A stretch of 64,000 bases of DNA from Geosiphon pyriformis (taxonomy: Eukaryota; Glomeromycota; Glomeromycetes; Archaeosporales; Geosiphonaceae), in the NCBI GenBank assembly GCA_016748015.1, contig JAAOMT010000175.1, positions 532,212 to 596,211 on the forward strand, in the 5' to 3' direction. Numbering within the stretch: the first letter of the stretch is position 1; every line of letters begins with the position of its first letter. The notes under the pieces were generated by a model. The model did no database searches. It was not told where the DNA came from and was given only the letters and a program-made list of their open reading frames with translations. A program made the translations under genes and the position numbers. Of this stretch, positions 49,130 to 64,000 are shown one piece after another.

Positions 49130-50465
49130 TGGTTCAATTGAGAATATGAATAATTATGAATAATAGGCTAATTTTACGGGTCTTTGTCAATAAATTTGTT
49201 TTTGAACCGCTAATAATGTGCGTTTAAACTTGGGGATCTTTTATATATTGTTTTTATTCTGTATCCGCTAAACCAATTTTGTTTAATAGACATTCTAGCT
49301 TCACATTTAGTTTTTTTCTTGAAGATTAATTTGAAACGGCTGAAAACTTTTTTCTGCATCAAAAATGTATATAGAATTTTCTATAGAAGTTCTTTGTTCC
49401 AAAGATAATCTAACCTAGTCAAATTAAAAACATCCTATTCTTAAGCTTTTGATTGTGATCAAAGATGGTGTAATAGCATTCAAAACTGCAAGCGACTGAA
49501 ATAAGGAAAGAAAAACGCCATAGTACATATTGTACAATAAGAAATCAAATCAAAATTTTTTCATTAAATGTAGTTTATTGTTTTTCTTGATGCAACATTG
49601 AATCGAGAAAAAACCTATATTTTCTCAAGTTTTTAAAATGTCGAGTAATGCGTGTTTTGAAATTCTTTTTAAGTGAAAGATATCTTGTGAATTTGAAATA
49701 AAAAAATATAAGCAATTAAAAATTTTGAAAAAGTTTTATCAATGAGATATCTATCAAAAAAAAAAACTTTGTGTCATGTGATGATTAAGAATAATCAAAT
49801 AAATTATATCTCCAAAAAGTTTTTTCTATCCAATTTTATTAATAATGAAAAAATGCATATTATTTTTAACCTTTACTTTATTAATAAAGAAATTACAGAT
49901 CCAAGTTATTAAGAAAAATAGATATTTTGAGGGATTAAAAATTCAAACTTGAATTGAACTCTTTACAAAAATGTTATGAACTATATAAATCCAATATTTA
50001 ACTCTGATTAAAAAATTACAATGGGATTTATGCATCCAAAACAATGTATATAATGAATTCTAGTCAAGTTTCAAATTTTTGTAATGGCATCCATCATCCA
50101 TCCATCCATAGATATCATAATCTAAAAAAAAGTTTTAAATTCGAATGATAGGTTTGTTATTGACAAAATATTGAAACTATCATAAATTGAAAAATAACAG
50201 ATAAGAATTAATCACTTATCAGTTATCATTTATTTTGATTTATTTCGTATTAGGATCAAAATATAAATGATCATTGATTGATTAATTTTTTTGAGGAAAA
50301 AAAAATATTCTCTCGTTTTTGTTTAAAGAGGTTAGCTAATAGACTAGCTAAAAAAAGTCATAGACTTTTGAACCACTTGACGAAAGAAAATTTTATAAAC
50401 ATAATATATATATATATATATAATCTTTATAGAAAATAGTGATAAAAAAATTATTTAGGACAAAA
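49130..50465. other. Intergenic region between kinase (-) and GDSL gene (+)
   Basis: A divergent promoter region of about 1.3 kb with a (TA)n tract at about 50405-50420 just before the GDSL gene. No coding frame seen. Confidence 0.5.
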
Positions 50466-51892
50466 ATGTATTCCCAATTAATCTTGACTATTTTTATTTT
50501 CTTGGGATTTGTTCAAGTGGTTCGATGTCAAAATAAAGATAACAGCACTGATAAATTTGACAAGTTTGTAGTTTTTGGTGACTCTTGGTCTGGTAAGTCT
50601 GTTTTCATATCTATGAAAAGTTGATTCAAAAGTTCTTCGAAAAAGATTTATATAATCATATTTTTCATTCCTTCATAAATTTTTATTTTAGATAATGGAA
50701 ATACATTTCGTTTGACAGGTGGGAACTTTCCATCACCTACAGAATTTTATTATAGTGGTCGATATTCAGATGGCCCTTTATGGTCCGAATTCTTATCAAA
50801 TGTGCTGGGTACCACATTTTTTGATTTTGCATATGCTGGGGCTTCGACAGAGTAGGTGATAATTAAAAATTTGTAGTCAATTTTGTAATGGTGAATTGAT
50901 TCAGACAATGAAAAATTGAAAATTTGAAAATTTTGTAATTCTTCTAATTTTATTTTATAGCAATAATCAAATTCAAGGTAAATTTAGTCAAACATGTGTT
51001 GTTAAATATATAAATTTTTTTTGGTTCTAAATTCCAAGATTTAAATCTTAAAAGCTAAAACATATTTTATTTCTAATCAAAGGATACGTACCAGGAGGTG
51101 GTCTAGAAAATAATGTTCCATTAATTTCTGTTCCAGGATTGATTCAACAAATTGAAAAGTTTAATGAATTTCAGGCGAGTAAAAATGGGACATTGGATTT
51201 AAGTCGTACTTTGGTTTCGGTAAGTTATTTTTCGATAAAGTTTTTGAATATATAAATTGATAAAATCAAGAATAAAATTTTTAAAATAAACCTACGAATT
51301 AATTTTTTATTAGACCTGGCTTAAGGGAAAACAATATTTTACATTTTCTTACACCAACAGTAGTACTGGTATCACCGTTGCCACCCCTCCTGAATTAGTT
51401 ATTCAATCTTTTCTAGAAGCTTGGAAAAAGCTTTATTCATTCGGTATTCGATTTTTCTTGGTTTTAACCCTTCCTTCTATCACCTCTTTTCCATTCTATT
51501 CCAAACTTCCTTCTTCTCTCTCAAGTTTACTTCAAAATATAACCCAACAACATAACGCTCTTTTAAGTAGCGCGATCGTCAATTTTCAAACAACATATCA
51601 AGGGGTGAAATTTTTCTTTTTTGACTTTGAAAAGTTTAAAATGCAATACGTAGAAAATAGACGAGGTTTCAATAACTTGTTTGATGAAATCGGGGTTTGT
51701 GTTAGAGAGGTTACGAAATATGATACCGAAGAAGTTGAAGGGGAAATAAGGGAAAAACAAGGGGTTGAAAAATGTGGAGATGAAGGACAAGTTTTTTGGT
51801 ATGATTTATGGAATTTTGGACGAGATATTCATAAAGCTTTAGCTGAAAGAATTGGAGGGACGTTCAAAGGAGGCTGGAGGGAACAGTTATGA
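50466..51892 (+). CDS. Secreted GDSL/SGNH-hydrolase-fold protein 1 (incomplete catalytic set)
   Basis: Five exons: 50466-50592, 50692-50851, 50961-50977, 51083-51219 and 51314-51892; 339 residues. A signal peptide (YSQLILTIFIFLGFVQVVRC) is followed by block I VFGDSWSDNGN with Ser at about residue 40. GRYSDGPLWSEFL and AYAGAST follow (block II Gly kept). Block III, normally GxND, reads GKQY. Block V, normally D-x-x-H, reads YDLWNFGRDIH, with Asn at +3 and a His only at +9. The fold is that of fungal CE16-like esterases/GDSL lipases, but two of four SGNH residues are changed, so activity is doubtful. Exon 3 is a 17-nt micro-exon. The ATG at 50466 was preferred because it starts the signal peptide. 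First gene of a six-gene hydrolase-fold cluster. Confidence 0.85.
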
Positions 51893-52500: not shown

Positions 52501-54105
52501 TCAGACGCTTGGAATCTTGTCCAATTCTTTACAATGACCCATTGTTGTCCCAAAATATGGACCAACGTGTGATTTGTTTTCATTATCAATAGAATGATCA
52601 CCGATTCCAGAATTACACTCCTAATAAATTAAATTATTTCAATTTTCAATTTCAATTTAAAGTAACACATCACATCAAAGATCTTACGGTACCGGGTGTT
52701 CGCCACTAGTTAACCCTTTCCATGGTCTATAACCAGCACATTCCCAAAGTGCTAATCCATTAGTTGTTTCATCAACCGGTAGATCACAATTACAATCCGG
52801 CTCAGCTAGCCAATATTCTAATTCATGATGGCGATATTCCTCGGGAGAATTATATAATCTTGGAATGAAATCATTAGTATGTGTCACACGAAAGACGCTA
52901 ATTAGTTGATTGGTTAAAGCGGCAAATGAAGGAGGTCCAATCCTTGGTTGTCCAAATGTGGTAACATGAATTTTTAGTCCCTGTGGTGGCCATTGGTTGA
53001 CATTTCCACGAAGATCAATTTCAAGTGCTAAGGCTGTTAATACTGCGTATGCTATAAAATTTCAGAATTGCGCGATTCCGATTAAAAGTGGAATATTTTA
53101 ATAATATATAGTAAAGAAATATTTACCCCCACCGATACCATGGCCGGTAAAAAATATTTTAGGATTTTTCCATTCACCCAGTACACCTGTTTTATTTAAG
53201 AGGCCTTTCATCAATTCCAAAAACTCTGGAATAAAAATTCCAACGGTAATCTGCAATTCATCGTCAACAAACGTATCGGTCGGTTGAGGAAATGGACTAT
53301 GATATGGTGCAAGTCTTTGCTGTCGTCTTTTCCATCTTTTAAAAGACATTAGTTTATTCTTGAAAAATCCAACAATACTTTTAGTATCATGATCTATATA
53401 TATATTCACTAAATCTGAATAAGAGAAAAAAAAGAAAAAGAAATTTGAATTTGAATTTGAATTTTTTGGAAGTTTTTTTTTAGTGTAATTTTCAAATTTA
53501 AAAGATTTAACTATTAAAAATAAACTTAAAAAACCTCGCCGATCTTTAGGGTCCTCTCCGAATCCTTTTGGAGGTCTAGTTTTAAAAGGACAATAACCAA
53601 AATTAGCAAAAACTGCTAAATGGCTCAAAAACTTGATTGTCCTTTCATCGGTTATTCGATGTCGTTTATAATAGGAAGGAATTTTTTCACGTTTTTCGTT
53701 TTTATTTTTCGATTGAAGATTTGGTGGTGAGTAATAATGATTGAATTTATCAAGATTTTTAGGGAATGAAAACGAAGGTTCTTGATTAAACTTTTCAAGC
53801 TCCAATTTCACGGAACCATCCAAAAGTGATTCAAGTGGAATCAAATGATCAGGAATACGGTAAAGTGTCTTATTATTTAAATTTTTTTGATATTTGGAGG
53901 AGTAAGAGGAGGAGGAGGAGGAGGAGGAGGAGGAGGAGGAGGAGGAGGAGTAGTTGTAGTAGTAGTTGTAAGAGGAGGTTAATATGATTGAAGTGATTTT
54001 AGATAAATAAATGATTGAAAGGAACAGAAAAATGATAAAGAAATATTTCAAATTATTCAGTCGTTTGAATGAGTTTACAATAAACCATTTATTTATTTCG
54101 TACAT
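52501..54105 (-). CDS. Class 3 lipase-fold protein A, nucleophile Ser replaced by Gly
   Basis: Four exons, complement(52501-52620, 52693-53051, 53127-53414, 53535-54105), 445 residues. An N-terminal membrane anchor (FFIIFLFLSIIYLSKITSIIL) is followed by a poly-Ser/Tyr stretch encoded by a (TCC)n tract. The lipase_3 core follows. The nucleophile elbow reads TGHGIGGA, where the family has GHSLGGA, so Gly (about residue 283, codon 53137-53139) stands for the catalytic Ser. Asp is kept in THTNDFIP and His in SHVGPYFG, aligning with the C-terminal catalytic His of Rhizomucor-type lipases. TTFGQPRIG is present. The oxyanion-loop RGT motif is not recognisable (GFFKNK). Intron 1 is 120 nt and open, so its retention would add 40 residues in frame. 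Predicted type II membrane or shed protein without lipase chemistry. Confidence 0.85.
53906..53950. repeat. (GGA)n microsatellite encoding poly-Ser on the minus strand
   Basis: About fifteen GGA units. On the coding (minus) strand they are TCC codons and make a Ser run inside the juxtamembrane stalk of lipase-like A. Length variation would change the stalk without breaking the frame. Confidence 0.85.
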
Positions 54106-55072
54106 TTTTTTTTCTAGAAAAAGAGGAAAAATATTTCCTTAAAACATATTTTCTCATTTAATGGTTTTTTTATTTTTTTTTGGATTTAGTACCAAAATAT
54201 TTTTTTACTTAAAAAAAAGATCTTCTTCTCCTACTCGTCCATTTATGATCCTCCTCCATTTCCCGATATGTAAATTCTAGTAAAAATTTTTTTTTTTTTT
54301 TTTTCGCAAAAATGTTCGGAGACAATACAAATGTTAATTATTTTTATGACTAAATTAGGGGGAAAATCTATCAAATTATTAATATGTTTAAAAATATATA
54401 TATATAAATGTGTGTAAAAGTAATTTTCTAAAATTGGAATTGAGAAAAATAATTTGTCAATTTTTTGAGTGTAAATTTGTTTTTTGCTAAATATGCGTTA
54501 AAATTTTTACTTTTAATTATAATTAATTATAATGGTAATTTTTTGAATAAATAAATAAATAAATAAAATAATAAAAATTATATATAGAGAAAAATTAAAA
54601 TGAAAAATAAAAATTTTATACTACAAGTCAGAAACAGTATCCCAATTAATAAATTGTATGAATTTAATTACTTTTTCTAAAAATTCATCTCTTTTAGAAA
54701 TTATGTATGGTTAAAATTTTAGACGACGATAATAAACTTTATGAAACGTGATAAACTCAAGAGTATAAGAAAATTTTTTTTTAACCTTTAAATGATAAAA
54801 TCATCTTTTATTTGAAAATACGAATATTTCATTATTTAAATTAATGTCTTATCAAGTAGTCAATAATCATTTAATGACTGTAAAACATATTCATTAATAT
54901 TTTATTTCTTTAAAAAGGTAAAATACCAGAAAAAAATGATAATTAAATTATTTGCAAAAAAAAATCCAAAAAAGTATTTTTAACATTTTTCTTTTTGAAA
55001 TTTCGCAATACGCTAATCATTTTTAATATATAATGATTAAATGGGTCGTCATTATTTCAAGCTAATCCGTAT
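54106..55072. other. AT-rich spacer between lipase-like A and B
   Basis: About 970 bases of AT-rich sequence with A and T runs and an (AAAT)n tract near 54547-54567. It is the upstream region of gene A and the 3' flank of gene B. Confidence 0.5.
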
Positions 55073-56856
55073 TTATATTGGACACACACCCATTACGTAT
55101 CCAAAATATGGACCTTTATGAGTCTCGATCGGATCTATTGATCGTTTCAAACCGTAGTGGTTTATGCAATGCTGATATACAAAAAAAGTTGAAGATTAAA
55201 GTTTGGTTATTAATAATATTTTTTTGGTGGGATTTTAACTCTTAATTTCTGCAACTCAAGTAGAAAATTATTAAAAATTTACCGGATTCTCAAGCTCATA
55301 TCCGTGAGGTAATACATCGGTTCTTTTTCCAAAGCATTCGTACACAATCCATGAATTTGAATTTTTTTCCACACACTCACAATCCTTTTCATTTGATATC
55401 CAAATTTCTCTTTGTGAATGCAAGTAACCAACATCTGTATGCGGGTATCGCGGGATATCGTCATCCTGATATGTGACACGATAAACTAAAGGAAAATTCG
55501 GAGTCCAGATTCGATTAATGTATTCCACTTGTGGTGCTGCCGCAAACCGGGGTTGACCGAACGTTACGATTTGAACATTTGAAGATGGATTTAAGCGTTT
55601 CCACATTAGCCCTGTTAGAACTGCGTACACTGTAGGGTATCAAAAAGAGGGGAAAAATCTGAATACGAAAAAATTTATCAAAAAAACCACAATCAGAAAC
55701 TTTTTTTCAATCACAGCAACATACCACCACCAGAGCCCCATCCAGTAATTCTTAATTTGTATTGTGTAACCCACATGTTATCCACAAGGTCCTCAATCAC
55801 TTTGATTAAATTTTTTTTAGCCTTTCTGAAATTTATTTGAAATACTTCATCAATGCCATCTGAATCTGGGCCGTAATATTTTTTATTTCCGATTTCCTCG
55901 TCGGTGTTGTTGATGATATTATTCTTACGATTTTCCCATTGTTTAATTGATAATTCTGTCCCACGAACGTATATTATTATTTCTTTAGGGTTTGAGTTCG
56001 GTTTCGTTATGCCCTCCGCTGCAGGATGAATGAATGGATGAATGGATGGATGGATGAATGGATGGATGGATGAATGGATGAATGGATGAATGGATGAATG
56101 GATGAATGGATGAATGGATGAATGGATGAATGGAAATGAAGAAAATAAGAGGGAGGCAATAAAGTTCAATCCTTCGTGTTGATATTTATTGATTAATTTT
56201 GAAAATTAAAAATTATACTGAAAAGCGAGAACAAATATGAAATAGGTAACCGGTAGTATACAAGTTTTTCTAACCTAATAAACAGCACTAAAATTATCGT
56301 TGACTGACTTATCTCTTTCTAAAAAAACAAAACACTCACCATAAATTCCTTCCCACATTCTACCACCCATCCCTCCACCGCTAAGCCAATTCATACAAGA
56401 ACTTTTTTGAGCATACTGGGCCATCTCTTTAATAAAATCCAAAAATTTCGGATCGTTTATCCTGTTTTTTTCAAAATTATTGTCATTAGTACTATAATGT
56501 CCATGATCAAATACGTTACTACTGATTACAATTTGTTTTTGACTTTTCAAATTTATTTCATTTGAAGAGATTTGTGGGATATTTGAACGAGGTTTATGAG
56601 TAAAGATCGAATTGAAATGATTTGATTGGTGGGTTGTGTTTAAAGTGAATGGTGGTGGTGGAAAGTTAATTGGTGAAGTGATTGATTTCAAACCAAAAGT
56701 GAGTTCGGAATCTTGATTTGATTTATCATTAATATCATTATTATTTAGTTGAAAATTTTCGTTATAATTGTAATTTTTTACAAAAGGTTTCGGTTTAGCC
56801 TCAACGAGAAATAATAAATAGTAAAAAATAAATAAAATTCCTAGAAATATCTTCAT
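55073..56856 (-). CDS. Secreted class 3 lipase-fold protein B, nucleophile Ser replaced by Gly
   Basis: Four exons, complement(55073-55171, 55283-55629, 55725-56018, 56340-56856), 418 residues. The start at 56856 gives a clear signal peptide (MKIFLGILFIFYYLLFLVEA); an upstream in-frame Met at 56919 would mask it. The central part has IIIYVRGTELSIKQW, the only copy here with a good oxyanion RGT motif. The elbow reads TGWGSGG: Gly at about residue 267 (codon 55735-55737) replaces Ser, but a Ser sits one residue later. IVTFGQPRF is present, Asp lies in TYQDDDIP, and His in THKGPYFG. Cys pairs (CDCEC-like, MGVCP) suggest disulphides as in extracellular lipases. Intron 1 contains the 8-bp repeat noted separately. 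Introns fall at the same places and phases as in A and C. Confidence 0.83.
56020..56135. repeat. (ATGAATGG)n / (ATGG)n minisatellite in intron 1 of lipase-like B
   Basis: About 115 bases of near-perfect 8-bp units interrupted by 4-bp ATGG units. On the gene strand it is a CATT/CATC pyrimidine-rich tract ending directly at the CAG acceptor (56019), so it forms the polypyrimidine tract of the intron. It also creates a spurious open frame of Ile-His-Pro repeats. Confidence 0.85.
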
Positions 56857-58267
56857 TTCTCTTCTATTATCAAATTTCCAAAAATTTTGTGAAAATATTT
56901 TTATTTCTTTTTGAATCATTTACGTCAACGAATTTTTCAAAAAAGATTGGTAAGAATCGAAATCAGATGTCAATCAAAAAGTGTATTAAATATGTGTGTG
57001 TGTACATTTACTTGTTTATATTTTTTTTTCATTCCTTTATAATAATATGGAAATCAGAGGTCATCTAACGATCACTAGAGCTTTTTAATAATTTTTGAGA
57101 TGAAATTTTTTTCAAAATATTTAGCATTTAATCCAAATGTTACTTATTTCTTCTTATTTTAGATGGGTATCAATATTGGGGGAACCCTTTTTTTTTTGTT
57201 AAATATCTTTAAAGTTTGAAACATTTTCAAAGTAGAGTAGCAGTAACATGATTTGAGAATAATTAAAAAAATTTAAATTCGTGAATATTAAAATTCAGTT
57301 ACGATAGGAGCCGAGATAACTCGTTTTAATATTTTTTTGAAAGATTTTTCAAAAAATAAATAAATCACATGTTATATATATATAGAAAAGATCCTGCTTT
57401 AAATAGAAATTTTCAATTTGTAATTCTTTTAAATAATAGAACATAATACATTAAAATTATCACTAATCAAACTCTTTAATTTTAGATCAGATCTCAAGAT
57501 AACTAGACTTTTAAGCCTTTATTTGGGAATTAATTTCTTTTTTTCAAAGCGAAAAAATTATTGTTATTCTAAAAAGAAGAAGCTTTATCTTTAATAATTG
57601 TTAACTTTATTCAGGATAGTCCCAATCTATTTTCTAATTATTCAACTATATATTTTTATTGGTACTCATTATTAGGAAGTTCTTTTAGTTATTATTTTAC
57701 CACCATCATTACCAACACCAACACCAACACCAACACCAACACCAACACCAACACCAACACCAACCACCACCACCACTACCACATTCATCCAAATAATAAA
57801 CTTGTCAATGAATTAACTTTGAAATGGCTAAGCTTTGTAACATCTTCAAATATGGATGGTTTACGAACATTTCCTTTCTCGGCTAAAGACTATTTTATCC
57901 GTAGTACTGATTGTCTCAACAAACGGAAGATGTTTGTCATATTTGAACGAATTTATTCAGGGCGAATGCTACCAGAAATTCCAAAAACTACTCATCATAC
58001 TGTTTGTAATACTGATCGAAGATTCGAAATTGAGGGGCATCAGTTTTGATAGATTAAATTGAGAATAGGCTAATAGTAACTGATAACAATGATGAATAAT
58101 GATGGCTAAAAAAAAAATAACTGCCACGCTAATTTAAAAAAAAAGTTTCAGTTGAAAAAAGTTTTTTAAAACCCAATTTTATTCTTACATTCCCAAAGAT
58201 TGAAACATCCTATTTTTTTTATATTTTTTTTTTTTTTTGATAATAAAAAAATTTAAAAGTTAACAAT
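56857..58267. other. Divergent spacer between lipase-like B (-) and GDSL 2 (+)
   Basis: Contains an (ACCAAC)n repeat at about 57711-57766 followed by an ACC-rich stretch to about 57780. A short open frame at 57819-58049 has no start context, splice continuation or family match. T runs precede the GDSL 2 start. Confidence 0.5.
57711..57766. repeat. (ACCAAC)n hexamer microsatellite
   Basis: About nine units of ACCAAC, followed by (CCA)n. It lies about 500 bases upstream of GDSL 2, in non-coding DNA. Confidence 0.85.
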
Positions 58268-59554
58268 ATGTTTTGTAAATTTTGGGTCTGCTTCGTTTTC
58301 ATATGTTTACCTTGTACTATCACCTGCCTGACCATTAACGTAAAACGTGATTTAAACCCAAAAACAAAATATAATAAATTGATTGTATTTGGAGACATTT
58401 ATTCCGGTAGATTTGAAATGGAAAGAATGAAAAATCTTTTATCGTCTTATATTATTTCTCAAAAATTAATCTTTATTAGATAATGGAAATACATTTAAAT
58501 TATCTGGTGGAAAATACCCGAATCCACCCTCACGTTACTATAAAGGCCGATACACTAATGGTCTTTTATGGCCAGACTACATACAGAAAATTTTGGATAT
58601 TGAGTTATTAAATTTCTCATATGGTGGTGCCACGGCAGAGTATGTATCTTTTCAATATTTAAAGTTTTCAATTGGATTTTTGAATTCAGTGAAAATTAAA
58701 AAAATTTTCAAATATTTTTATTCAAAGCAATGATTATTTTCAAGGTAAATTGATTGATTGATTTTTTTTTTTAAAAAAAAAAACTTTTGGTCTTTGAAAA
58801 ATTTTATTTATTGCCATTTTCTATTTTAAAAAATTTCATCTAAAGGAAAAGCAGGACATTATTTAATACCCGACTTTCCGGTTCCTGGATTCATACAACA
58901 AGTAAAAACTTTTAATGAAACTTATTCAGAAATTACTGATTTCAGCAAATCTTTAGCAGTGGTAAGTGAAAAATATTTAGTTTTCATATCATTTGAACGA
59001 ATCAAAAAATTTTTTTTGTTCAGAAATTTTTTATAATCTTTTTAAATAAATTGAAATTCCGAATATTTAACTAGACTTTTTTAACGGGAGCTGATTACGC
59101 CTACAATTTCAACAACCCTGATCCTAAATCTATCATCTCGGTCTTCCCGGAAGCTTGGAAAATTCTCTATAATAGAGGGATCACTTCTTTTCTCGTACCT
59201 TTACTACCCCGAATCTGGGAAGCACCATTCTTTGGTTCTTTAGACCCTATCGCTCGAGGAAATTTGATCGAGAAAGCTAATACACATAACCAACTTCTTC
59301 AGGATGCTATTGAAAATTTCAAAAAGAGCAATCAAGATGTTGACATGAAGCTTTTTGATACGCCAAATTTTCTCGATAAAAATAATTTTCCTGCAATTTT
59401 AAATTTCACCAATCCTTGTATAAATTATGAAATTGTACCACCAGTTGTATGTCAGGAGCCTACAGATTATTTCTATTATGATTTATACTGTTTATCTAAC
59501 AAAGTTCACTCAGATTTGGGCTGGGAAATTGCAGGTAGAATTGGGGAGTTATAA
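58268..59554 (+). CDS. Secreted GDSL/SGNH-fold pseudo-hydrolase 2 (GDS changed to GDI)
   Basis: Five exons: 58268-58406, 58480-58639, 58728-58744, 58846-58961 and 59075-59554; 303 residues. Signal peptide MFCKFWVCFVFICLPCTITC. Block I reads VFGDIYSDNGN: the nucleophile codon (58397-58399) is ATT, Ile, instead of Ser. Block II keeps Gly (SYGGATA). Block III reads GADY instead of GxND. Block V reads YDLYCLSNKVH, with Cys where DxxH needs His and a His only at +9. Thus S, N and H of SGNH are all changed while the rest of the fold is conserved and all splice sites and the frame are intact. That argues for a retained non-enzymatic role rather than a dying gene. Exon structure matches GDSL 1, including 160-nt exon 2 and 17-nt exon 3. 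Confidence 0.87.
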
Positions 59555-59559
59555 TTATA

Positions 59560-59563
59560 GTAA

Positions 59564-59596
<33 letters not shown>

Positions 59597-59710
59597 CAGT
59601 TATAGTAGTTATATTAGTTATAGTAGTTATAGTAGTTATAGTAGTTAGAGTAGTTATAGTAGTTAGAGTAGTTGTAGTAGTAGTTATAGTAGTAGTAGTA
59701 GTAGTAGAAT
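59560..59710. repeat. (AGT)n / (AGTTAT)n tract just after the GDSL 2 stop
   Basis: Starts within about ten bases of the TAA. Pure AGT units are followed by AGTTAT units. It would encode Ser or Ser-Tyr runs if the stop were bypassed with a frame change; most likely it lies in the 3' untranslated region. Confidence 0.85.
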
Positions 59711-60456
59711 CTTGTAAAGAAAATCTTTTTTTAAAAAGATTTTCTTGAACTGTTTATTTTTATTTTTTTTAGATTTGATTTGTATTTTAAATTTTTGTTT
59801 TTTAGAAGCTGTTTACTTGAAAACTCTATCATTTCATGAACATCATTATTTTTTAAGAAAGAAAACAAAATAAATTATATATTAAAAACAATCCAAATAT
59901 TTTGATGTAAAGCGTATTGGGATGTAGTGGTAGTTATAGTTACGAAAGCAATCAAATATTTTTTACCGATGCAACATGCTCTTCTCTCTTTTTAGTTACA
60001 TTAATTATCTTTATGAAACGATTACAAAATCAAAAACAAAAATTTATAACAAACATTCCATCGAATTTTATCCTAATATATCCTAATATATCCTAATATA
60101 TCCTAATATATATATAAATTTAGTTTATTTTAGCTTTAATAGTAAATTTAAGAATGGATATTTTTGCAAAAAAATATCCATTTTTATTATATTTCTTGAA
60201 ATCGTATAAATGAGTAATAAATTTCAGTTATTCATTTATTCATTTGGTTGTTTATTTATTTATATATAATGAGTAAGTGAAAAAAAAATTTCAAAAATTT
60301 CAAACTAAATATAAATTTAAAGGTTTGACAAAAAAATCATTTTTCAAATTATTATATATATATTTTCTAAATTGAAGGAGTTTCTTTTTTTTTGAAAGTT
60401 AATTTTTTTTTTCTTGTTCGATTTTGCAAAAATTTTTTCTAGATATATATTAAAAT
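59711..60456. other. Spacer between GDSL 2 (+) and lipase-like C (-)
   Basis: 3' flanks of convergent genes. Contains four tandem copies of a 10-bp unit (TATCCTAATA) at about 60070-60110. No gene seen. Confidence 0.55.
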
Positions 60457-62107
60457 TTATTGATTCGAACTTTTTAACATAAAATTTCGATTGGGAGGAT
60501 CAGAATGTTGACAAACTCCCATTTTGTATTGAAAATATGGACCATCGTGAGAAAAAATCCCGGATAAGTATCTTGTTTCATGAAATTGAGCATTGCAATC
60601 CTATTTTGGAATTTAAGGATGTAGATTTTAAAAAGAAAATAAAAAGTATAATTTTAAACCGAAATTTTAATAATTCTTTACCGGATGTTCATCACCAGTC
60701 TCCACATTACATTCCCATACAATTTCAGGGGGCTTACTACAATCACATGGGCTCTCTGGAATCCAGTACTCTGTTCCTGAATGGGCAAAACGTACACCTG
60801 ACACCTGATTTGGATACGATGGGATAACATCATCACTATTCGTGACTCGGTTGACCGTGAATTTTTGATTAATATACCGAGCCAATTTAATATCTCCCAA
60901 TCTTGGGGAGCCAAATGTTGTTACAATGACTCGTCGTGTTGAGAATATCTTTTGAAAAGATAATGCCGCTAAAAGTGCCCAAACTGAATCAATTAGATTC
61001 AGTCAGTAAAATACGTACGGTGAGGAAAAGAGATTAGACTAAAGGTAGAAATTTTAATACTGGGTTTATTCTAAAAAAAACTTGTGGGAAATACAAGATC
61101 TTAATATCAATAAAACTCACCACCACCTTCACCATGTCCAGTAAAGTGGAAAGGATAGGCTCGATAAGTTGAATTTCTTATGAACCGGTCAAAAACTTTA
61201 ATCAATTGATCCTCTGCACTTGTATACTCTTGTCCTGTTGTAATCAAATTTTTCCAAACATCAAAACCATTCGGGTCATTTTTCTCAAAATTGTTCGTTG
61301 TAAATTTGGTATAAAACCCTTTTTCGATTAATGGAGGTACATTCATTTCCGGTACTGGATATTGTTGGAATGTATTTTTCTGTTTAAGCAAATTGAGCTG
61401 GGTTAAGTCTTGACCTTTAAAAAAAAAGATAATTTTTCCTTCGATTTCCGTTGAAGGTGATTGTACGCGTGAATCAGCTAATTCAAGAATTTAGGAGCAA
61501 AAAGTTTTTCAATGCTTGAAATCTTTATTTTCTCAATATTTTTTTAAAATACAAGATGTGATTAAGTTCAAATTTTCTTACCATAAATTCCATCTCCAAT
61601 TTTTCCATTCTCATTATTTAGACAGTATGCTTCTTGTGAATAATAAGCCATTTCTAATAGTAATCTTAGTATTCTTGACGAGCTAATAGGTTTTTTCGTC
61701 ATACCAGATGTATTATCTAATTGGTTTCTTTTTACTATTCGCGTCGTCCTTTTAAAATTTAAAGAAGGATCTTTTAATTTATTTTTCCTTCGCATTTCTC
61801 GATAGAAACTATTTTTGAAATTTGATAAATGTGTTTTTGTATCATTTTTAGCGAAAGAGTAATTTTTAGGAAAATTACGTCCAATTCTAAAATTTTCATC
61901 AAGATTTGATGATGATGATGATGATGATGTTGTTGTTGTTATTGTTGTTGATTTTGATGTTGATATTGATGTAGAAAGTATCTTTGGAAATGTGTCCATT
62001 GACCATTTCTCGGCAGTGTATATAAAAATCTTGAAGAGTGTATAAAAAGATAAAACAAATATTATCCAAAAAACCTTTGAAGAGAGGAAATTTAGTTTTT
62101 GTTGCAT
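60457..62107 (-). CDS. Class 3 lipase-fold protein C, nucleophile Ser replaced by Gly
   Basis: Four exons, complement(60457-60600, 60682-60983, 61121-61477, 61582-62107), 442 residues. An N-terminal membrane anchor (VFWIIFVLSFYTLFKIFIYT) is followed by a Thr/Ser-rich stalk, so it is a type II membrane protein or is cleaved. The elbow reads TGHGEGGV, with Gly at about residue 291 (codon 61131-61133) for the catalytic Ser. VTTFGSPRLGD follows; Asp lies in TNSDDVIPSYP and His in FSHDGPYFQ. The oxyanion segment reads IFFFKGQDL rather than RGT. Introns sit at the same positions and phases (1, 1, 0) as in A and B. Closest neighbour by eye is gene D (shared CNAQFHETR and FSH.GPYF). Confidence 0.85.
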
Positions 62108-62663: not shown

Positions 62664-63401
62664 TTACCGATGATCAATAGTATGATAAAATTGAAACTGT
62701 TTGTGAGGAGCCTCCTACATCTTTTGAATACGGTAATTTCTTTACTAGATTATTTTATTTTCTTCGATTTAGATATAAGGGAGCAAGGAATAGACTAATC
62801 GAGTTGAGTTCGAGTTAAAAACTTGATGATTTTTAACAAATAAAAATCAAGAATAAAGTTGACATAATAAATTTTATCATTTTTATAAAATAAATTCAGG
62901 GTTAGAAATATTTCATACAAAAAGATAATCAATTGATTTGAAGTAGAATCAATTAAAATATAAACCTATTGTTATTCAATATTTTTAATTTAGACTATCG
63001 AATGACAAAATTTAATTGATGTAAAATTCAAAATCTTTTTTTATCATAAAGTTTATTTTCATTTATAATAGATTCAGTAAGTTTTTACAAGTTTTATTTC
63101 GATCTCAAAATTCGAAATATTTCCTTTCAAGATTCATTTGAATAATTCATTTCTTGAATATTTGACCTGATGAGTTATTAAGTATACATAAATCAGTTAA
63201 AACATTTTTAATCAAATAAATAAATAAGTTAACAAAGAACCTTTTTCAGGTTTTAAACATTAATGGATTTTTTTGGAATACAAAAATTTTCAACATAATC
63301 TCTTTTCCAATGATTTTTTTTTCATTTAATTCATTGTAACAAATGAATGTTTTTGGCTTTTTCTTCTCAATAAATTTTAAAATGAAGTCCAGTTATAGTA
63401 T
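62108..63401. other. Spacer upstream of lipase-like C with (CAT)n repeat
   Basis: AT-rich, with an (ATC)n microsatellite at about 62616-62661. No coding gene recognised. Confidence 0.5.
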
Positions 63402-63612
63402 TCAATTAAGTTCAGGGGAAATAGGCCATGTTTTACTTGATGATCCTTCATAGGGACATCTGCCCATGATGTAACCAAAATAGGGACCATAATGTGAAAA
63501 CCTTCCTTGTAAGTTTCTCGTCTCATGAAACTGTGCATTGCATTCCTATTATAATTAATATTTCAAGAAAAAAATCAAAAAAATTTTTGAGCTCAATAGT
63601 TTAAACTCTTTT

Positions 63613-63653
<41 letters not shown>

Positions 63654-63988
63654 AACTAATATTATTTTCTTGTGTTCAATTCTACTCACTGGATTTTCTT
63701 GGCCAGACTCGGAATAACATTCAAATGCCACTACCCGAAATTTACATTCACACTCATCTAAGGGAATCCAATATTCTTCACGATGATGTCGATATTTCTC
63801 TCCACGATACTCTTTCGGGAATGAAGGAATAGTATCGTCAGCATGGGTAACTCTGTATGAAATCAACCATTCATCAACAAATCGAGCAAACTGGTAATTG
63901 CCAATACGTGGCTGACCAAAAGTTATCACTTCCACATTTATATGAGGGTATTTCCTTTTGAAAGAAATAGCAGTGAGGAGGGCCCAAA
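63402..63988 (-). CDS. Class 3 lipase-fold protein D, partial (C-terminal exons only)
   Basis: Only the last two exons lie in the window: complement(63402-63545, 63690-63988). The 5' exons, including the nucleophile elbow, are beyond the right edge. The third exon begins at acceptor AAAAAG|TTT and reads WALLTAISFKRKYPHINVEV, then FGQPRIGN, THADDTIPSFP (catalytic Asp) and YRHHREEYW. The last exon reads CNAQFHETR and FSHYGPYFG (catalytic His) and ends in a Cys-containing tail. It is the closest paralogue of gene C. Whether its nucleophile is Ser or Gly cannot be seen. The last intron contains an (ATC)n microsatellite. Confidence 0.85.
63616..63651. repeat. (ATC)n microsatellite in the last intron of lipase-like D
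   Basis: About twelve CAT/ATC units within the intron between the last two exons; read through it gives a poly-Met artefact. Confidence 0.85.
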
Positions 63989-64000
63989 CTTTTTAAAATA

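Follow-up and report, generated by a model that had tools for sequence, protein, structure and literature searches.

The 64,000-nucleotide stretch of the Geosiphon pyriformis genome considered here (the window; C393:532212-596211) carries a cluster of genes for class 3 lipase-like proteins on its minus strand, three of which, A, B and C, encode Gly where the catalytic Ser of such enzymes belongs. No fungus other than Geosiphon is known to harbour intracellular cyanobacteria. Extending the analysis to its 124.7-Mb genome shows that Gly occupies this position in most copies of a large family, that about a tenth to a fifth of the copies have Ser, and that most copies are not decaying.

Gene A (52501..54105, exons 53535-54105, 53127-53414, 52693-53051 and 52501-52620), gene B (55073..56919, exons 56340-56919, 55725-56018, 55283-55629 and 55073-55171) and gene C (60457..62107, exons 61582-62107, 61121-61477, 60682-60983 and 60457-60600) all read on the minus strand with GT-AG splicing and predict pseudo-lipases of 445, 439 and 442 amino acids, respectively. 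Their Pfam Lipase_3 (PF01764) scores of 57.6, 51.5 and 65.4 bits are all well above the curated cut-off of 22 bits, and a Pfam scan of the three found no other family above its cut-off. The nucleophile codon is GGT in A (53137-53139, elbow FTGHGIGG), GGC in B (55735-55737, ITGWGSGG) and GGT in C (61131-61133, FTGHGEGG). By hydropathy, A has an N-terminal hydrophobic stretch at residues 24-42 that is a probable anchor, B a signal-peptide-like stretch, MKIFLGILFIFYYLLFLVEA, and C a hydrophobic stretch at residues 12-30. These features suggest secretion of B and anchoring of A and C; the family of A-C is probably extracellular or anchored, as a sequence-only reading of the window had proposed. 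In a protein search, gene C was 100% identical over the aligned part to the GenBank model G9A89_022381 (P0001), which has 247 amino acids and lacks the N-terminal part and last exon of gene C. A fourth copy, gene D, enters the window with its 3′ part (63377-63992, ends approximate, minus strand), comprising an Asp-block exon and a His-block exon with SHYGPYFG. Its elbow exon lies just beyond the window, at C393 ~596300 (flank locus L009), and reads GHDEGG, with Asp at the nucleophile position.

Catalytic class 3 lipases require a GxSxG elbow, which is absent from A, B and C and likewise from D. When aligned by phmmer, GWGSG of gene B falls onto GHSLG of feruloyl esterase A (1usw), Gly on Ser, and GHGEG of the paralogue P0012 falls onto GHSLG of the solved lipase 37cb, where Gly pairs with Ser and Asp with Asp. 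A superposition onto class 3 lipases of solved structure agrees with the lipase alpha/beta-hydrolase fold, and A, B and C each contain the Asp block as well as the C-terminal His block. The oxyanion strand reads RGT in B and KGQ in C, while A has IYIDHD in place of RG(T/S); oxyanion residues other than Thr or Ser can serve in other lipases. The replacement of Ser by Gly, the retained Asp and His blocks and the intact frames and splice sites, all claimed by the sequence-only reading for A-C, are thereby confirmed, and the finding it had named as a refutation, a true nucleophile elsewhere in the alignment, did not materialize. Its count of three Gly paralogues out of three stands for A, B and C but not for the cluster, given the Asp of D.

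The elbow residue was counted genome-wide in two ways. The first count used DNA fetched around Lipase_3 matches, with profile scoring covering 150 of 748 first-look candidates, and required the anchor motif TFGxP(R/K/Q), so that copies without this motif are under-counted. It read 141 copies (95 Gly, 28 Ser, 5 Arg, 5 Asn, 4 Asp, 3 Ala and 1 Cys); six further copies read by eye, four Ser and two Gly, would give 147 copies with 97 Gly and 32 Ser. Repeats of the same copy were merged (L019, L093, L141-L143), the elbow was not accepted at three anchors (L018 +5249, which is broken; L029 4135, in the wrong frame; and L068), and L006, L010, L031 and L076 contributed none. The second count, independent of Pfam scores, searched for GGN CAY NNN NNN GGN GGN followed by an in-register splice donor GGTR. 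It found 321 exact matches (control, 2), which are pattern matches in DNA rather than confirmed genes: 230 Gly, 35 Ser (31 AGY and 4 TCN), 25 Ala, 10 Asp, 4 Asn and 17 others. As the reversed pattern gave 0 Gly matches, a chance origin of the Gly elbows is excluded. The pattern skips elbows that lack His (GFG, GWG) or whose donor is preceded by a different base, and so misses two of the four genes of the window cluster (B, with Trp for His, and D, with another base there), which makes the second count a lower bound. The Ser share is 20% in the first count versus 11% in the second; the first, drawn from the best Pfam scores, may favour Ser copies. The lack of Ser among the visible copies hence does not extend to the genome, and the proposed pseudo-lipase family is real and large, with 230 pattern-matched Gly elbows in one genome and GenBank gene models of its members.

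Across the 141 copies, the catalytic Asp is kept in 140 (129 by pattern, 11 by eye), the exception, L030, being a broken exon. The catalytic His was read in 32 of the 95 Gly copies (part of these loci hand-picked, before their His was seen), in 16 of the 18 other non-Ser copies (all except L011, where it was not found, and L132) and in 20 Ser copies (it was not found in L008, L024 and L101). It is kept in 31 of the 32 Gly copies, L067 having Asn, and in 18 of the 20 Ser copies, two of these, L061 and L021 6840, in deviant blocks; among the Arg, Asn, Asp, Ala and Cys copies it is kept in 7 and lost in 9. The difference between Gly and the other non-Ser classes gives a Fisher p of 5.7e-5 for copies that are related by descent, and a tree-aware independent-pairs test of Gly against His had five independent pairs only. 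Among the GenBank proteins, P0004, whose elbow is Gly, carries Arg at the His position. Four copies with Arg as nucleophile residue (L029 6654, L029 4121, L030 1985 and L022 1050; GHRLAG, GYRLGG) show a paired change in that Tyr replaces the catalytic His in blocks reading TYDG(P/S)YFG or AYFGPYFG; the fifth Arg copy, L100, keeps His. The oxyanion Thr is present in 7 of 8 readable canonical copies (of 10), and Thr or Ser stands in 6 of 52 readable Gly copies (of 95); the motif was located by a text pattern, and some of its picks, including that of gene A, are spurious. Nested Ser copies had neither residue in the 8 read (of 18), and two of them, L017 6236 and L044, are without His, so that some nested Ser copies may be inactive too.

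The Gly copies use all four codons (36 GGA, 36 GGT, 14 GGC and 9 GGG), and 27 of the 28 Ser copies use AGY. Parsimony on the tree described below assigns the nucleophile codon about 44 synonymous and 36 non-synonymous changes, compared with 59 and 3 for the motif's first structural Gly and, for the residue after the nucleophile, 38 and 77; constraint at the nucleophile codon is moderate. The ratio of non-synonymous to synonymous substitution rates (dN/dS; Nei-Gojobori, NG86) ranges from 0.27 to 1.11 in the 37 Gly-Gly pairs with a value, 29 of them within 0.35-0.65, in non-independent pairs drawn from few subfamilies; the values for four canonical Ser pairs are 0.13-0.25, though at dS 1.5-2.4. 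The family also carries a C-terminal GPYFG block and conserved cysteines. No alternative Ser was conserved at 85% or more across 15 GenBank domains; the conservation count used 92 of 96 Gly copies, with four dropped. Together with the GenBank models, the spread over all four Gly codons, the near-universal Asp and the dN/dS values bear out the earlier view that this is not simple decay. Assembly error or frame decay as the source of the Gly elbows is ruled out by splice sites, open frames and GenBank models.

The tree was built from 147 rows (144 Geosiphon copies and three outside sequences) and 123 columns, without L061, L110 and L135, and 71 of its 144 inner forks are unresolved. The GHSLGG copies, whose oxyanion strand is RGT in 7 of the 8 read, lie close to the outside lipases. 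All remaining copies belong to a large expansion where Gly, Ser and other elbows are intermixed, with Ser/Gly neighbour pairs that include L087/L097 and L017/L027. Gly copies cluster on the tree, none of 500 shuffles giving so low a value, yet at least 23 changes are needed, five of them forced by starred branches. Forcing the Gly copies into a single clade apart from Ser costs 75 log units (approximately unbiased (AU) test, p 0.0445), so that such a clade is weakly rejected. Midpoint-root parsimony places Gly at the root, with about eight Gly-to-Ser steps versus about six from Ser to Gly; since the direction of the steps depends on the root, Gly may have been fixed early, with later reversions to Ser. 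L097, a nested Ser copy, uses TCT, which is not one step from AGY or GGN; its residue therefore appears to have passed through something else. The residue thus changed repeatedly, and the suggestion that Gly was fixed before duplication could hold only in a modified version: parsimony puts Gly at the midpoint root, while a state fixed once and then kept is doubtful in light of the Asp of D, the number of changes and the AU result.

Three protein searches, which rely on shared 5-residue words and may miss distant relatives, retrieved 42 distinct Geosiphon proteins of the family with 44 elbows (38 Gly, 3 Ser, 2 Asp and 1 Arg) and eight proteins from elsewhere, among them four from metagenome sources and two plant proteins with Ser. 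Beyond Geosiphon, the consensus search named a single fungal protein, an alpha/beta hydrolase of Jimgerdemannia flammicorona (P0044, E 2.2e-18), which keeps Ser (GHSLGG). No Gly-elbow relative in another fungus was found in these word-based searches, which included no other Glomeromycotina proteome searched whole. Their sole Gly elbow outside Geosiphon belongs to P0048, an apparently bacterial Lipase_3 protein of 236 amino acids with GHGIGG; all eight of its bacterial relatives have GHS, so that P0048 is probably an isolated Ser-to-Gly change. Two GenBank models of the set, G9A89_015066 (P0002), in which a GYSLGG lipase part is linked to a complete GHGEGG domain, and G9A89_018345 (P0004), in which methyltransferase domains are linked to such a domain, are probably merged gene models.

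Among known class 3 enzymes, the lipases of Rhizomucor miehei and Thermomyces lanuginosus and feruloyl esterase A use a Ser nucleophile, whereas most Geosiphon copies are without it, mostly lack the oxyanion Thr or Ser, and number more than 300 elbow exons in one genome. The closest precedent for the Gly-elbow family, by analogy, is DPP10. According to PMC4350108, on these inactive S9B peptidases, DPP10 has Gly for Ser (GKGYGG) and DPP6 has Asp; the elbow of DPP10 is unaltered, its His and Asp are hydrogen-bonded, its role is non-enzymatic, and replacing the Gly with Ser did not restore activity. The likeness lies in an alpha/beta-hydrolase elbow with Gly or Asp for Ser, in the retained His and Asp of DPP10 and in single-pass membrane proteins. 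DPP10 and DPP6 are analogues only, however, as they belong to an unrelated peptidase family with a beta-propeller and are components of neuronal Kv4 channels; the Pfam scan of A-C found no S9 beta-propeller or peptidase domain. Among the plant immune lipase-like proteins EDS1, PAD4 and SAG101, EDS1 and PAD4 are described in PMC9528080 as keeping Ser-Asp-His and carrying an EP domain, whereas A-C are Ser-less and showed no EP domain in the same scan. NDRG proteins (PMC7022630) are likewise non-enzymatic members of the alpha/beta-hydrolase fold, but NDRG3 has all triad residues replaced, whereas Geosiphon keeps Asp and His. A Ser-to-Gly pseudo-hydrolase is a known kind; a class 3 pseudo-lipase radiation of several hundred copies in one fungus is without a report among the matches listed from the full-text literature, a coverage that stops short of the Geosiphon genome paper (Curr Biol 2021).

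We propose, with a probability of roughly two in three, that Geosiphon maintains a huge lipase-fold family, most members of which lack the catalytic Ser and are retained as secreted or membrane-anchored proteins that do not hydrolyse. Loss of Ser would remove hydrolysis and leave the fold, the conserved cysteines and the pocket in place. At the tip of a nucleophile elbow the backbone is strained, and Gly, followed by Asn and Asp, is the residue most stable in that conformation; with Ser gone, Gly would be favoured there, and Asn and Asp are also seen. The pocket, with its Asp-His pair, might still accommodate an acyl or ester ligand, or else the surface of a partner. On the cell surface or where the fungus meets its symbiont, so many rapidly diverging copies could act in recognition, in sequestration or as regulators. 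A set of divergent copies that runs into the hundreds suggests a binding or recognition role, and for the Gly copies a non-hydrolytic binding role is the best reading of these sequences. The premise of the sequence-only reading that the fungus lives on host-derived fatty acids is not established: Geosiphon hosts Nostoc, and its ecology differs. Several observations weigh against our proposal. A minority of copies keep Ser, some sitting among Gly copies on the tree, and the several parsimony returns from Gly to Ser would be odd had the position ceased to matter for chemistry. The retention of His in Gly copies, set against its loss in 9 of 16 other non-Ser copies, hints that Asp-His chemistry may persist. 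Constraint on the nucleophile codon is weaker than on the structural glycines to either side, and the few Gly pairs with dN/dS near 1 indicate that some copies may be drifting.

Three alternatives deserve weighing. The Gly copies could be altered enzymes whose Asp-His pair, using the room vacated by the Ser side chain, activates water or a hydroxyl of the substrate. Asp in 94 of 95 Gly copies (partly by eye) and the His contrast described above speak for this idea, yet phylogenetically independent pairs are too few to inform, the oxyanion Thr or Ser is mostly missing from Gly copies and mostly present in canonical ones, and DPP10 (PMC4350108) has the Asp-His pair and is inactive. Moreover, copies without His likewise retain Asp, which may thus be structural; we regard altered catalysis as unlikely. 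Similarly improbable is an expansion under relaxed selection with neutral loss of activity, in which Gly was the easiest stable substitute. Such drift would fit the at least 23 changes for Gly, the six residues (Ser, Ala, Asp, Asn, Arg and Cys) found besides it and the higher dN/dS than in canonical Ser pairs, but divergent copies keep their frames, Asp, cysteines and GPYFG block, Gly persists across all four codons and clusters on the tree, and 42 distinct protein models of the family exist. That the nucleophile lies elsewhere or the elbow is mis-spliced, making these ordinary lipases, is very hard to credit: GenBank models are predictions, but the splice donor stands in one register at 321 elbows, which rules out mis-splicing, Gly aligns with the catalytic Ser of solved lipases, and no conserved alternative Ser is present.

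Pseudoenzymes usually comprise few members alongside active relatives; here, a single fungal genome holds 230 pattern-matched Gly-elbow lipase-like exons versus 35 with Ser. Counting Lipase_3 matches as lipases in such a genome can consequently overstate enzyme number several-fold. With the Ser/Gly neighbour pairs one can ask what function an alpha/beta-hydrolase pocket serves after hydrolysis has been lost, and the family as a whole forms a candidate list of surface or secreted proteins for the Geosiphon-Nostoc interface. More tentatively, and with the odds against it, a digestive lipase may have given rise to a several-hundred-member, fast-diversifying repertoire of surface or secreted binding proteins, Gly-elbowed and with the Asp-His pair intact, that recognise or manage the cyanobacterial partner or the lipids exchanged with it; if so, this pseudoenzyme repertoire would be comparable in scale to receptor families.

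Other features of the window lie in or between these genes. A GDSL-type esterase gene between B and C (58247-59554, plus strand, Pfam 36.5 bits) reads FGDIYSG, its catalytic Ser replaced by Ile (ATT), while a neighbour at 50433-51892 reads FGDSWSG; the second lipolytic family of the cluster may thus hold a dead copy too. A search for co-located GDSL genes, made insensitive by exon splitting, gave 5 matches and no further lead. Low-complexity tracts occur as a poly-Ser repeat at the N-terminus of A (53896-53950) and as a Ser/Thr-rich tract in C (61906-61972). Finally, the first intron of B contains an array of an 8-bp unit (ATGGATGA) at 56026-56134 that is open in all three minus-strand frames.

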